A stretch of DNA of 31,068 nt from Chrysochromulina parva (Eukaryota > Haptophyta > Prymnesiales > Chrysochromulinaceae), in NCBI GenBank assembly GCA_002887195.1, contig PJAB01000277.1, positions 1 through 31,068 of the forward strand. Reading direction: 5' to 3'. Shown piece by piece: positions 3,933 to 26,386 of the stretch. A model generated the notes under the pieces. That model was not told where the DNA came from. It saw only the letters and a list, made by a program, of their open reading frames with translations, and did no database searches. Within the stretch, counting starts at the first letter, position 1. Every line of letters begins with the position of its first letter. Both the position numbers and the translations under genes were made by a program.

Positions 3933-5524
3933 TCAACGGGCGAACGGCAGGCACAGGTACGCGCCATAAAAGTACTTCCAGAGCTCCATGTACAGGGCGT
4001 AGACGGCTGGGGGGTCATCGGGCGACACGCTCGCGGCACGACGGCGGATGGCGACGACGGAGGCGGCGCAGGCGAGGCTGACGGCGAGGCGACGCACGGC
4101 GAGCGCCGCGGTGGGCGCGAGCGTCGCGGCCGCGCCGAGTGCCACTCCGGTTAGCGCGAGCGTCGTCGTGAGCAGATTGAGTCCCAGCCGCAGAACCGCC
4201 GCGGCCCCGATGCGCACCTGATGAGGGAGGTCATCGAGTGGCCATCAATGGCCCTCAGTGGTCATCGAATGGCAATCAGTGGCAATCAGTGGCACTCGGC
4301 AGCACTCGGTAGCACTCAGCGGCAATCCATCTCTGATGAAGGAGGCCATCAGATCCACTCAGCGGCAATCAGCGGCAATCCATCTCTGATTAAGGAAGCC
4401 ATCAGATCCACTCAGCGGCACTCGACTCAGCGGAAATCCATGGCAACCAGTGGCGCGCTCGCACCGAGAAGGAGCGGATTCCAAACTGTCGGTCGCCCTT
4501 GATGTCGGGCACGTCTTTCAACAACGCGATCACGAGGCCGAAGAGGCTGAAGAAGCCAACGGGCGCCCAGCAGCGAAGCGGCAGCGACGACCAGCCGAGC
4601 GCCGCCGACGGCAGCGAGCCTGCCGCGGCCGCGGCGACGGAGATCGCGTGTGCGCAGAAGCCCCAATTGACCAGCGCACCGCTGCGGGCGGCATGGGGCG
4701 TGGGGGCGAGTGTGAGTGCGAGCCGGGAGGGCGCGTGCAAGGGGATCCATCGGCCGAGGACTGGCTGGCACACGCGCATGCATGCATGCAAGGGGATCCA
4801 TCGGCCGAGGACTGGCTGGCACACGCGCATGCATGCACCGGACGGTGATGATGCAGGCGCTAGCGAGGAGCGGGAAGCGCTTGAGACGGAAGGGCGGCGC
4901 CGAGTAGAGCGTGCCAAGCACCGCCGAGCCCAGCAGCGTGATGCGCAGCGCGTTCGTAGAGAGCCAGGGATGCCACCAGCCGAGGCCGAGGGAGAGGACG
5001 AGAGCTCCAGCCACGAGCAGGCTGCCGGCGAACGGACTGAGCTCGCCCGAGGCCAGCGGCAGGTCGGGTTTGTTGATGCGGTCAATCTCGATGTCGAGCA
5101 GCTGGTTGAGGCCGGTGATGTACACGTTCATGAGCAGCGCGGCGGGCAAGGCGTACAGCACGCCTTGGAGCAGTGGCAGCGACAGCGCCGCTCCCGCCGG
5201 CGCCGCGTACAACGTGAGCGCAGGAATGCACACCGCGGAGCCGAGCATAGTATGCGGTCGCGAGAAGCGCCAGAGCACGTGCAGCAGCGACGATGGCCGC
5301 GGCAGCGCAACTGCGATGTCAGCAGGGAGCGGCTCGCTGTCGTCCTCGCTGTCGTCCTCGCTGTGCTGGGCGAGAGCACTCCGTGGCGGGCTGGCGACCG
5401 CGACGCTCCGACGGCAGCGCGGCGCAAGGGTCGGTCGAGCAGCAGAGGTAGCGGAACCGGTTGACAGCGCGTGGACGCGCACTCCCGACAGTAGGAGTGC
5501 AGACAATACGAAGCGCGCCGACAT
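3933..5524 (-). CDS. Homogentisate prenyltransferase (UbiA family), plastid-targeted
   Basis: Three exons: 5524..4839, 4681..4465, 4217..3933; 395 residues. It should condense homogentisate with a prenyl diphosphate (phytyl for tocopherol, solanesyl for plastoquinone) in a plastid membrane. The first Asp-rich motif is N140-QLLD-IEID148 followed by RINKPDLPLASGELS; the second is KDVPDIKGD (284-292) followed by FGIRSFSVR. The ending YMELWKYFYGAYLCLPFAR is typical of the homogentisate branch. Splices restore TVR-GALVNWGF and RSFS-VRIGAA, both conserved. Residues 1-19 look like a signal peptide (SALLLSGVRVHA) and 20-75 like a transit region, as expected for a secondary plastid. Phytyl versus solanesyl use cannot be decided here. 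Both introns are repeat-rich. Head to head with the PB1 gene. Confidence 0.9.
4218..4464 (-). repeat. Prenyltransferase intron 2: sense-oriented 10-12-nt repeats
   Basis: 247-nt GT-AG intron. In gene sense it is mostly degenerate units such as CGCTGAGTGC, CACTGATTGC and CATTGATGGC, ending CCTCCCTCATCAG before exon 3. A 53-bp longer-period duplication is superimposed (copies starting near 4323 and 4376 on the plus strand). The donor GTGCGA and the exon 3 start GTGCGC share GTGCG. The 16-mer GATTGCCGCTGAGTGC also occurs in the intron at 15246-15327 of an unrelated gene. Confidence 0.85.
4682..4838 (-). repeat. Prenyltransferase intron 1: 51-bp tandem duplication
   Basis: 157-nt intron (donor GTGCAT, acceptor CCGCCCGCAG). 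It holds two near-identical copies, period 51 (plus-strand starts about 4741 and 4792), each containing CGGCCGAGGACTGGCTGGC and ending in GCATGCATGCA. The exon 1 end plus intron start reads CGGTGC, and exon 2 also starts CGGTGC. Confidence 0.85.
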
Positions 5525-16731: not shown

Positions 16732-17688
16732 ATGGCTGACGATTCGGCCAGTGAGCCCAAGCCTCCGGGCTCAGTGACGAAAAAGGGAGGAGAGGCTTGG
16801 TGATACACATGCCGCTCTCACGCGTGCCTTGAACACGTGATACACAGCCGACCGCCGCACGCCTTCCTCCACCGGCCACAGGTTTATCGAGATCTCACGC
16901 GACTACGAGAAGCGGCGCGCCGCTCTGAAAGATTTTGCGGCGAAGGATGGCGACGGATGGGTGCCCAAGCACTTAGCAGAATCATATCGCACGGCGGCGG
17001 ATAGGATGCGCAAGACGTGGCGCAGCCACAGCGGCATGAGCCCAGGCCGGGACGGCTCCCTGCGCAGCGCCTTCACCTTCGATGAAGACGGGCGCGGCGA
17101 TGAGGAGGAGGCGCCGCCTCCCGCCGACAATGTGGGCGATGAGGAGCTCATGGCGATGATGCAGTCGCGATGGGTCGAGGTGGAGTGCTTGCTGCGCGTG
17201 CAGCTGCGCACCCCAGATGCGCTCTCCGAGGCGCGCCGTCGCGTGCTGGCGTCGCTGCGCTTTGACGAGGGCGTGGCGGCGCAGGCGGCGAGCAGTCATC
17301 AGCTCAAGGGTACCATCTTCCAGGCGCTCCTCGCCTTCGTCGACGGGCGTGCCGAGTCGACGGCGGCGTCCGTAGCGTGCGGGGTCGGCGATGCGGAGTG
17401 GGCGGAATTGGCCATGGGAGCCGACGCACTGCGCAAGCTCGTGCGGATCAAGGTTCAGGTACATCGCCCCGCTTTGCTGATTGCATTCTGATTGCGTGCT
17501 GATTGCATGCTGATAGCGTACTGATTGTATGTGACGGGCACGGACCTTGATGTCAGGACGACAACGACCTCAAGGCTGCGAACCTCGCTCTCAAGTCGTG
17601 CGCTGAGTTCTTCGACAATCTCGCAGTCTACGCACGGCGCCATGGTCTCGACGAAACAGAGGTGCTGCCGAAGCTCGAGTTCCGTTGA
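16732..17688 (+). CDS. Hypothetical three-exon protein
   Basis: Exons 16732..16799, 16882..17458 and 17557..17688, 258 residues. The first splice (phase 2) gives GGEAW-FIEISRDYEKRRAA, and the second gives LVRIKVQ-DDNDLKAANLAL; both produce smooth helical sequence. Contents: a helical N-terminal part (residues 23-60), an acidic Pro-rich linker (GDEEEAPPPADN), and a mainly helical C-terminal half (ELMAMMQSRWVEVECLLRVQ, SSHQLKGTIFQALLAFVDGR, LALKSCAEFFDNLAVYARRH). I do not recognise the family. Intron 1 is a degenerate ~37-nt duplication starting GTGATACACA (16800 and 16837). Confidence 0.62.
17459..17556 (+). repeat. Intron 2 of the 16732 gene: 11-nt repeats
   Basis: 98-nt intron (GTACAT...GATGTCAG). 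Five exact 11-nt units occupy 17476-17530: GCTGATTGCAT, TCTGATTGCGT, GCTGATTGCAT, GCTGATAGCGT, ACTGATTGTAT. Each carries a CTGAT branch-point-like core. Confidence 0.9.
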
Positions 17689-22462: not shown

Positions 22463-25400
22463 ATGCCGCCCGCTGTCCCTGACGCCTTTTTTATTCATGT
22501 GAATGGCTCTGGAAGCCAGGACGTAAAGATGTTGACCGACCAGAACGACATGGCGCTCATCAACGCCCTGCGACTTCTTGCCCGAGAAAAACAGGAAGCG
22601 GCTGGGCTGGCTGGTCCGGATGCAACCCAAGACCGAGCTGCCCATGCGCTACACATGACACGTTACGCCTCACTCGTGCGCGCAGGCGCGGAGCGGCTCA
22701 GGGCACCCACCGTGCTCGCGGCCGACGACGTGCACATGACGTCTCCGCGCACCCGGCTCATCGCCAATAGCCTGGCCTCGCGGCCGGCGACTTCGCGCTT
22801 GCAGAAGCCCATCGCGATATCGCGTCCGCTCTCGGCGCTCACCGCACGTCCATCGCTTTGCGAGTCCTCTATCTATCGGAACTTGGCCGGCAGCACGGCC
22901 AGCAGCGCGCTGCCGACGCCGGCAAAGCTTCGTCGGGGCCAGCGCGATCCCACAGATGCGAAGGAGCTCACCGACACGCTCACGATGAGCCTGTGCTCGG
23001 CGTCAGATTTGACATCGAGTGCGACGCTGCAGTACTCGCGGGCTGAGGCTGAGGGCGGCGCCCGCGGCGCCGGCGCGACCACAGTGAATGGCACGCCCTT
23101 CGGTGCGCCGTCATCGGCGTCGGCATCGGCGGCGCGCCAACCGCTGTCGCTGGCGCCGCCGAAGCCGTATTCGGTCGTGATGGCCTCCTGGCGCGAAGCC
23201 AACCAGACCGGCGACGAGCAGGTGCGCGCAGCCTTGGACGAGCTAGCCGCCACCGAAGAGAAGAAGCTCCTTGCGACCAAACGGCGCCTCGACGCGCTGC
23301 GTGAGCTCGCCGACGAGCGCCAGGCGGAGAAGAGGCTTTTGGAGCGCGAGTTCGAGGCCCTCAAGGAACGTCTCTTTGGCATGGGTGAGATGACAAGTGC
23401 CACTGATGACCTCGGATGACCTCGGATGATCTCTGATGGCCTCTGATGACCTCTGATGACCTCTGAGTGCCTCTCTCATCAGGCGTCGACCTGTCGGCCA
23501 CCGTCGACGAACGAGGAGAGGCCGAGGCGCGGTGCGAGGTGGCCTTGGAAGAGCTCACGAGTGTGGAGTCGGACTGTGCGACACTCATCTTCATGGAGGA
23601 GCGTCTGCGGCAGTATCGGCCGCACTACCCTCGAAAGCTCACGTACCTCCGCTCAAGCATACTCGAGGTCAACGAACGGCTCGAAAAGACGATCGTGGAC
23701 AGTGAGCTCGCGCTCGCGTCCGCGGAGCAATGGAAGGCGCGGCGGATGGCGGAGCACGTGCGCTTGAGAGCTCAGTCCGAGGAGCACGCGCGGCTGCGCA
23801 AGGAGCGCGCGGCCCAATTGCACGAAGCCGGCTCAGCGCGCCGTAAGAGGGCGATGGAACTGGTCGGCGCTGGAAATGGGAACATCATGGTCGGCGAGGC
23901 GACGACCGAGCGGCAGCGCGATGATCTCGGACAGGTAGTGGCCTTGGATAACGAAGCGCTCGAGTTCAACGTGACGGGCGAGGTAGCGAGGGCGGCCAAG
24001 CGGGCGGAACAAAACTACTATGACGCGAGCGTGCGCGTGGACTCAGCGCTGCGCGATTCGGGAGCGGCAGTGACCATCGCCCGAGCAGAGAAGCTCGAGC
24101 ACGAGCGCGGCTCGATTAGTCTTCGCACCGCGTTTGAGAAGATTGCGCTCGCGTGCGACGCGCCCGCAGCTCATGCGGCGCCCTTCAGCGCGCGCATGGC
24201 GCACGCGCTGCAGTACATTATGGACCAGCTCGAAGCACGAGAGACGTTTGAGGGGGTTGAGAGGGACCGCGTGGCCCTCATGGAACGGTCCAAGGAGAAG
24301 ATCATACGGCTGCAGCTCGATTTGGCAAGCGTCCGCGAGACGGGCGATGCGGCACGCGCCGAGTTTGACGAAACCCTCGACGCGGTCGCAGCGCGCATCT
24401 CGGCGGCAGAGGCGCGCTGCCGCGAGGCGCGCCGGGGGGTCGAGCGCGTAGAGGGGGTCGCCCTCGGGGCTGTCGCCTCCCTCGAGGCCTCGGCCGAAGT
24501 GCTCTCGAATCCCGTCGTGTGCAACCAGTTGCCCGACAAGGTGCGCGGTGCGGTGCTTCAGCGCACTCGGCAGCTGCTCGAGGTGCGCCGAGCGATGGAG
24601 AAGCTGCGCGCGCGCGAGACCGCTCCCGAGAAGACGGCGCGCTTTGCGGGCATCGAGCTCGGTGACTTGAAGCGGGAGGGCCATTCGCTCGACCAAGCTA
24701 CAGGTAGCAGCAGCGATGGCGGCGGCGGCGGCGGTGGCGCAGACTGTCGCGACACTCGCTCCGATGGCGGCTCAGTGATGGGGCCGCTGCGTCCGAATCC
24801 CCCGAAGCGCGCCCGATCGAATTGCTCGCAGTCAACGGTCGCTTCCTTTGCGTCGACGGCCGCGTCCTTGGCACTCGAGCAGACGCTCCCAGTCGAATCT
24901 TCGCGATCTTCGAGGCCCCAGCTCCGACGCCAAAAGTCGTCGGGGGCTAGCGACGGCAAGGCGAGCCTGAGCGTGCCATCGGACGGCAGTGCCATGACGT
25001 TCATCACACCGGCGCTCGCGGAGCTGCTCGGTATCAAACTGAGCGACGGTGACGAAGAGGGCACAGGCGTCGTCGACGGAGACGCGCAATCGGCCTCTGG
25101 GCCGACTCGACGTCGTCTGAGCTCGACCATCAGTCCGAGCAAAGCGCAGGCCACCAGCGGCGGCGCCAAGGGGGTAGATGCCGCCGCTGGGCCATCTGGC
25201 CAGCTCAAGAAGGTGAAGCTCTCGATGACGATGCCTCTGATGATCTCTGATTGCCTCTCTCATCTGGCCAGCTCAAGAAGGCGAAGCTCTCGATGAGTGC
25301 CCTCAAGATGGTCGAACCTGAGTGCATGCTGATTGCATGCTGATGGCCCTCCCTGATTGCATGCAGGTGAAGCTCTCGATGAGTGACCTCAAGATGGTCG

Positions 25401-25726
25401 AGGCCGTCATGTATGCCTCCGTCAACGAGAGTGCGCTGTGCGCGCTCATTCTGTCGATGGGCTGGGATGCTGACCAGATGGCCCAGCTGCGTCCGGAGCG
25501 CGCCCCTAGCCTGGAGGAGCCCAGTGCACGCGCCCGCAACAACCGCATCCCGCACCTGAGATTGCACGAGCTGCAACGGAATGGAGGGGCGACCTCGCCC
25601 ACCCAGCTGCCCGAGATCTCACCAGACGCCAAATTCAGCGCCCACGAGCTCAAGGCCTTTCAGGCGACCCTGCGCGCCGAGACTGCGGCCACAGCGGCAC
25701 AGGAGGCCAGGTGGCTCGAGGCGGAG

Positions 25727-25759
<33 letters not shown>

Positions 25760-26386
25760 GAGTACACCGAAGAGCCGGAGCCGGACAACGGCCAGTCCAT
25801 TGGCAGCAGCAGCAGCGCCGCCGTGCGCGCACCGGCCTCTGCCAGTTGGCAATACTCGGATCCCAAGCTGACGGATGCGCAGAAAAGGGCCCTTCTCGTG
25901 CCGATCGACACGGATGCCTCGAGCGGCTCGCTAGAGGCTCGCATGGCCTTTAAGCTACGCGAGTACAGCGTGCTGCGCGCCGAGCTCGGGGTGGCCGAGG
26001 CCAATAGGCGAGCCTCTCTCTCGCCCGAGCGCCGCACGCGCAGCAATCGGACCTCCAAGGAGGAGACGGGCGCTCAGCCAGGCGAGGCGCCGCCCGTCGC
26101 TGCGCCCTCGGCCGCCGGTGCTCAGGACGACGCGAATGGCGCCGTCGCGGGCGCCAGGATCCCCGTGCCGCCGGGCGGCACCGCGTCAGAGCGCCGTCGT
26201 GGGCGCCTCACCTCGATCGGCAGCCCTCGAGCTCTACCGACCGCCTCCGCACCCCCGCGGCGCCCTTTGCGCGCCACGCCGGAGAGAGGCGCCGCAGCGG
26301 GCGCCCCGCCACAGAGGCCAGCGGGTATCGGGGGGGGGCGGCCTCGCAGCCAGCAGACTCCCCGTGGACGCAAAGACGGGGACTGA
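22463..26386 (+). CDS. Large coiled-coil protein, three exons
   Basis: Exons 22463..23384, 23483..25212 and 25367..26386, 1,223 residues. The N-terminal ~230 residues are Ala/Ser/Arg-rich. A coiled coil starts near residue 255 (RAALDELAATEEKKLLATKR), crosses the first splice (EALKERLFGMG-VDLSATV) and continues through most of exon 2, with a notable block TLIFMEERLRQYRPHYPRKL and a helical pair around KVRGAVLQRTRQLLEVRRAM. Then comes a Ser-rich linker with a Gly run, and after the second splice (GQLKK-VKLSMSDLKMVEA) a helical segment NESALCALILSMGWDADQMA and an EAAAEAAAE repeat. The C terminus is Arg/Pro/Ala-rich. A cytoskeletal or ciliary role is possible, but I recognise no family. Intron 2 is exceptional (see repeat entry). 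Confidence 0.75.
23385..23482 (+). repeat. Coiled-coil gene intron 1: 10-nt repeats
   Basis: 98-nt intron (GTGAGA...CTCATCAG). From 23401 it is eight strict 10-nt units: CACTGATGAC, CTCGGATGAC, CTCGGATGAT, CTCTGATGGC, CTCTGATGAC twice, CTCTGAGTGC, CTCTCTCATC, followed by the acceptor AG. Confidence 0.92.
25193..25401 (+). repeat. Coiled-coil gene intron 2 with three copies of the exon junction
   Basis: Intron 25213-25366. Copy 1 (25193-25228) spans the exon 2 end and intron start. Copy 2 (25261-25315) lies wholly inside the intron and holds the complete unspliced junction; it matches copy 1 over 36 nt with a single difference, T25214 to C25282, which turns the donor GT into GC. Copy 3 (25367-25401) is the start of exon 3 and matches copy 2 over 35 nt with two differences. 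Between the copies lie CTGATTGC-type units, and GATTGCATGCAG forms the acceptor. Confidence 0.9.

Follow-up and report, generated by a model that had tools for sequence, protein, structure and literature searches.

The origin of new introns is still debated because most introns have lost their birth marks. Introners are intron-making sequences found at many places that carry one splice site and take the other from the duplicated target (PMC9860276). Previously characterised introners have duplications of 3 to 9 bp; an example from a Chrysochromulina sp. contributes its own 5′ splice site and shows a 4-bp duplication (PMC9860276). Direct repeats of 3 to 5 nt are described for Amoebophrya introners (PMC7789003). 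Neointrons of Daphnia pulex, attributed to the repair of staggered breaks, have terminal direct repeats of 4 to 12 bp and acquire secondary staggered insertions within the new intron (PMC4202315). In intron gain by tandem genomic duplication, a splice site comes from copied exon sequence, and the duplication of an AGGT alone makes both sites (PMC3443670). Fungal [D1,2] stwintrons comprise two introns at one place, one of which splits the donor of the other, and they can be removed together or stepwise; no site duplication is reported for them (PMC12403724). More generally, direct repeats of 4 to 30 bp near 213 introns of several kinds were reported by Rogers and Bendich (PMC11782384).

Many of the candidate introns in the genome analysed here keep birth marks, i.e., a common cassette and a duplicated exon stretch. 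Past the first two bases, which are those of the donor and are ignored by the search, the duplicates are free of mismatches at 18 of 35 measurable loci.

The predicted intron and its junction copies

The window, i.e., the whole stretch of 31,068 nt that was analysed, has a GC content of 64.5% and encodes a spermidine synthase 75% identical to that of Prymnesium parvum. The features of the target gene and its predicted intron are as follows.

22463-23384, + strand: exon 1 (predicted), open frame; its donor is one of three frame-keeping donors tried and was chosen for the joined product
23385-23482, + strand: intron 1 (predicted from the sequence), packed with CTGATGACCT-like units and ending in the cassette end CTCTCTCATCAG, without duplication of the exon start
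23483-25212, + strand: exon 2 (predicted), open frame
25193-25228, + strand: copy A (L+J), the last 20 nt of exon 2 and the first 16 nt of the intron, repeated at 25261-25296
25213-25214, + strand: donor GT, read from the sequence
25229-25260, + strand: f1, cassette piece (CTCTGATGATCTCTGATTGCCTCTCT) with its AG end missing; four own-genome BLAST matches (one in contig C387, three in C140)
25261-25315, + strand: copy B (L+J+R), a complete junction within the intron, recognised as a sequence repeat
25281-25282, + strand: internal GC, the possible GC donor of a second unit (25281-25366, 86 nt)
25316-25366, + strand: f2, cassette piece ending in CATGCAG, which supplies the acceptor AG at 25365-25366; recognised by own-genome BLAST matches and cassette counts
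25367-25401, + strand: copy C (J+R), opening exon 3, repeated at 25281-25315
25367-26386, + strand: exon 3 (predicted), open frame, stop included

The target intron is a predicted GT...AG intron of 154 nt (25213-25366). For the repeated exon pieces, L denotes the 20 nt at 25193-25212, J the 16 nt from the donor and R the sequence after J. The initial annotation had reported three copies of the exon junction, and all three are present (25193-25228, 25261-25315 and 25367-25401). Its statement that the internal copy departs from the donor copy by one base in 36 was likewise borne out, as A and B are identical at 35 of 36 positions and differ solely in GT (25213-25214) versus GC (25281-25282). Copies B and C agree at 33 of 35 positions, the mismatches being the GT/GC position and one other base. 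The repeats exceed chance: 11 exact 16-mer pairs and one 36-mer pair matching at at least 35 positions were found, and none of 200 two-base-block shuffles contained an exact 16-mer repeat. Own-genome BLAST, in which the best candidates were scored, gave no second copy of the exon part, and a paralogue as the source of copy B was rejected on this result.

None of the target gene exons matched a Pfam family. Four related proteins were found in the database (P0121, P0122, P0123 and P0124). The initial annotation had proposed that relatives be compared for an uninterrupted junction. In P0122 (353 aa, 99.4% identity, from a contig of 1075 bases), GQLKK-VKLSMSDLKM runs uninterrupted, and this entry would represent either a spliced transcript or an empty allele. 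P0123 (39%) is also continuous at the homologous place, its source being cDNA or DNA. P0121 (JGI, 609 aa, 98.5%) reads into the same intron and ends in RRRSSR, an ending that demands f1, copy B and a C rather than a T at 25282, as a GT would stop the frame four residues earlier. Since P0121 shares f1, copy B and the GC, an assembly error is unlikely. The sequence of P0124 resumes at VKLSMS; it is a gene model of Chrysochromulina tobinii, the nearest named relative with a sequenced genome and transcriptome, whose genome is reported to span 59 Mb, with a GC content of 63.4% and a mean of one intron per gene (PMC4580454). These relatives place the genome analysed here in Chrysochromulina, near C. 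tobinii, and the spermidine synthase of the window fits this placement. A protein search with the joined 1223-aa product gave no match at E 0.001 among 7993 scored candidates; three of the four later relatives lay outside the length limits of this search, and P0123 lay inside them yet was missed.

The cassette family and exon duplications at other loci

Neither f1 nor f2 is exon sequence, and both match a recurrent cassette. Own-genome BLAST of 25150-25450 (45 Mb, 2199 contigs) returned 78 matches including self, of which four fell on f1 and the majority on f2. Those matched loci that were inspected are intron-like 3′ parts with CTGATTGCATG- or CTGATGACCT-like units. The cassette consists of CTGAT repeats, pyrimidines and a CATCAG or CATGCAG end, and CTGAT fits a loose branch-point consensus. 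Exact counting in the genome gave 561 occurrences of CTGATTGCCTCYCTCATCAG, followed by GT in 361 cases and by GC in 73, and 1144 occurrences of CCTCCCTCATCAGG, with 36 for the CATGCAG form; the reversed-pattern controls for all of these counts were 0 each. The cassette had no match in viral and prokaryote collections, from which records near the own genome were possibly left out, and the junction pattern was found 0 times in viral contigs. Only two cassettes with full downstream flank occurred in 231 kb, both in sense orientation, and the coding score by a crude codon model was better downstream on the sense strand at 32 of 40 GT loci. Within the window, 17475-17531 holds a tandem array of TGCTGATTGCA units, which are of the cassette unit type; this is possibly another cassette intron.

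Duplication of exon sequence was scored at sampled cassette ends. The first 50 of the 361 GT places formed 40 clusters after merging of neighbours, and all were read. The exon start was repeated upstream in 25 of these 40 clusters at a score of at least 11 and in 20 at a score of at least 14, and permuted controls with exon starts swapped between loci (n=1560) reached the two thresholds in 0.13% and 0.06% of cases; a score-11 duplication was not reached in 15 of the 40 sampled GT clusters. The first 23 of the 73 GC places formed 22 clusters, 20 of which were fetched, and here a looser threshold gave a copy at 12 of 20 loci (permuted, 6.8% of 380), although the match at L096 is the cassette itself and some others are arrays. 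A GT- or GC-led copy was measurable at 35 of 60 loci, with duplications of 11 to 41 nt (median 20) and unit lengths of 43 to 174 nt (median 76). No trade-off between duplication length and filler length was observed (Spearman 0.05, p 0.79).

Complete internal junction copies, defined by an upstream exon end and a downstream exon start both lying inside the intron, were present at 6 of the 60 sampled loci (L047, L053, L060, L063, L068 and L080) in addition to the target, and in 5 of 3660 permuted cases. The target intron is one of a class and not singular. A scan of 231 kb without preselection found five direct repeats bounded by AG|GT. The other fifteen dinucleotides gave 0 to 11 apiece, so AG|GT was not enriched, which is explained by the abundance of all sorts of direct repeats in this genome. 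The evidence is thus confined to introns that were selected through their cassette.

Several further repeats were observed. At L048 (G000:C43:45575-46076), five upstream copies of the exon start are spaced 65 to 76 nt apart, most of them after CATCAG, and the chain resembles a series of complete intron-like units joined by exons of zero length. Stepwise splicing could naturally be tested on such chains. Another filler type (CTTGCATGC...GTGCTCACC) occurs at L026 (3152-3236) and L027 (777-858), in inserts that are bounded by direct repeats and end in AG|GT. On the minus strand of L027 (9219-9297), a TTAGGG-like filler with a terminal AG lies between the copies of an imperfect, GC-led direct repeat of 30 nt; this is possibly an intron from a captured telomeric repeat and would fit the capture of other DNA at a break. 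In the window, positions 4736-4837 hold a perfect 51-base tandem duplication (two copies at 100%).

When the donor copy was joined to the acceptor at L047, a protein kinase was restored (Pfam Pkinase, 2.7e-17) with no gap at the junction. Likewise, the joined product of L069 resembles P5C synthase, its best solved structure matching at 1e-21 with no junction gap, and is a short piece without a Pfam match. That of L049 is USP15-like (Pfam UCH, 2e-9), and its alignment has small gaps near the junction. Three more joined pieces gave weaker matches below the Pfam cut-offs (Arm repeat, methyltransferase and EF hand). The restoration of conserved proteins suggests indirectly that these candidate introns may be spliced from the mRNA.

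Proposed origin and rival explanations

The 154-nt predicted intron probably arose by two successive introner-like insertions, each of which duplicated about 35 nt of exon at its landing site. Staggered cuts or nicks, typically about 11 to 41 nt apart, would open the coding sequence, and a cassette of about 30 to 70 nt, made up of CTGAT repeats that resemble branch points, pyrimidines and a terminal AG, would be captured there. As the gaps are filled in, the exon sequence lying between the two cuts would be duplicated. The donor (GT or GC) would come from the upstream duplicate and the acceptor from the cassette, and splicing would remove the cassette together with one duplicate, leaving the mRNA unchanged. 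At the target, the insertion of f2 would account for the two flanking J+R copies of 35 nt, and that of f1 for the two flanking L+J copies of 36 nt, which straddle the exon-intron border and would thus place the complete junction B inside. The product would be either one intron of 154 nt or two abutting introns of 68 and 86 nt with a zero-length exon. As two insertions with site duplications suffice, A, B, C, f1 and f2 would all be explained without a further event. We slightly prefer an order in which f2 would have inserted before f1, since the acceptor that f2 brings along coincides with the splice point. Duplications this long and variable argue against a transposase that cuts at a fixed spacing.

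The internal donor had been described as disabled, which is not supported. The donor-side copy itself starts with GC at at least 8 of 20 sampled GC loci (L083, L087, L092, L093, L094, L100, L101 and L102), and GC-AG makes up 56% of 241 hand-mapped junctions in the haptophyte Emiliania huxleyi (PMC4028052). Among the seven complete copies, the internal dinucleotide is GC in two (the target and L060) and GT in five; L059, which lies outside the complete-copy filter, also reads GC. A recurring silencing by change of GT to GC was dropped in view of this distribution and of the usability of GC as a donor. The intron splits into a 68-nt GT...AG unit (25213-25280) and an abutting 86-nt GC...AG unit (25281-25366), both lengths being within the measured unit range, and the latter may be usable as an intron directly behind the 68-nt unit. 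Removal of the 68 and 86 nt in one step or in two would yield identical mRNA. If the GC donor were used while the first unit stayed in the mRNA, the message would be 68 nt longer and out of frame.

Other routes to the same arrangement differ in what they make of the fillers. Template switching in repair, with no mobile element involved, would copy a nearby or distant intron end and then resume at a more upstream point of the exon, so that a duplication and a templated filler are left behind. The cassette end CATCAG is cut short to CATC in f1, which thus lacks the AG, and copy B opens with CATC; this overlap also fits template switching, as do a similar overlap seen by eye in L053, the varying duplication lengths (11 to 41 nt) and the commonness of internal copies and chains. 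In the sampled loci, however, the cassette meets the duplicated exon at an AG, although an AG is often missing from the exon immediately ahead of the donor copy; the weight of this is limited, since splicing would select the same position and the search pattern required it. We consider template switching unlikely. Target-primed reverse transcription of an excised intron RNA at a nicked exon would leave insertions that agree at the 3′ end but differ at the 5′ end, with site duplications that are long and of varying length. Cassette starts indeed vary by locus, the AG end is shared and the duplications are long and variable. However, the shared 3′ end was built into the search pattern and is therefore no independent evidence of constancy, and f1 is without the AG. 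We regard this route as quite improbable. Break capture, reverse transcription and template switching could be distinguished by the lengths of the duplications, the ends of the cassettes and the nested cases.

The initial annotation had favoured a tandem duplication of a coding AAG-GTGAAG segment that later diverged, with the internal donor silenced, and had named the insertion of an exon copy into an older intron as the alternative. That the duplicated junction is tied to the origin of the intron stands, and the three junction copies agree with a tandem duplication, in which the AAGAAG before B could serve as the acceptor of the 68-nt unit. A plain duplication is nevertheless very unlikely, because f1 and f2 match the genome-wide cassette and not the exon, because this recurrent cassette between the copies brings the acceptor in a layout that recurs at other loci, and because GC is usable as a donor. 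The named alternative, in which a cassette intron already in place received B as a pasted copy of exon or mRNA sequence, came nearer, as B is a complete junction of the spliced type and relatives have uninterrupted versions. It would need an extra kind of event, though, where nested site duplications yield B without one, and the internal donor is not preceded by AG in two of the seven complete copies (L047 and L063), so an acceptor function does not account for the retention of the copy. The most fitting reading is that the insertions themselves produced the copies as site duplications, and we give pasting next to no credence.

Comparison with known systems of intron gain

As with introners, one intron-making sequence is found here at many places (361 cassette ends followed by GT, 561 in total), the similarity covering the cassette and not the whole intron. 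One splice site is carried and the other comes from the duplicated target, and at 25 of 40 sampled GT clusters the presumed donor is located within the upstream copy of exon sequence. In contrast to the short duplications of previously characterised introners, those observed here measure 11 to 41 nt, a comparison that covers the lengths of some of the families in PMC9860276. The 3′ site is carried, unlike the 5′ site of the Chrysochromulina sp. introner. As repeats of 4 to 30 bp have been described near introns generally, the argument from length is softened. Part of the introner families are also marked by terminal inverted repeats.

The Daphnia neointrons share with the target the terminal direct repeats, by which the exon end reappears at the other end of the intron, and the secondary staggered insertions in a new intron. 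The repeats are longer here, and the insert is a recurrent cassette; to our knowledge, the inserts of Daphnia-type neointrons form no recurrent family. In tandem genomic duplication, as here, a splice site derives from copied exon sequence, but in the present case the copies are separated by foreign sequence, f1 and f2 being members of the cassette family, and it is the cassette that brings the acceptor. As in the [D1,2] stwintrons, two introns at one place would be removable together or stepwise. However, instead of one intron splitting the donor of the other, two units abut at the target, each complete as judged from its sequence (GT...AG and GC...AG), and site duplications accompany them.

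Among the titles and abstracts listed from openly available papers on intron gain, none describes the present cassette family. As a tentative generalisation that may hold, recently active cassettes in a haptophyte would contribute no more than a branch point and an acceptor, obtain GT or GC donors from unusually long exon duplications of 11 to 41 nt, and repeatedly re-insert at their own junctions, giving chains of complete introns with zero-length exons that could be removed stepwise. Overall, the cassette family appears to act like an introner while departing from introners in the length of its duplications, and would thus represent a new variant.
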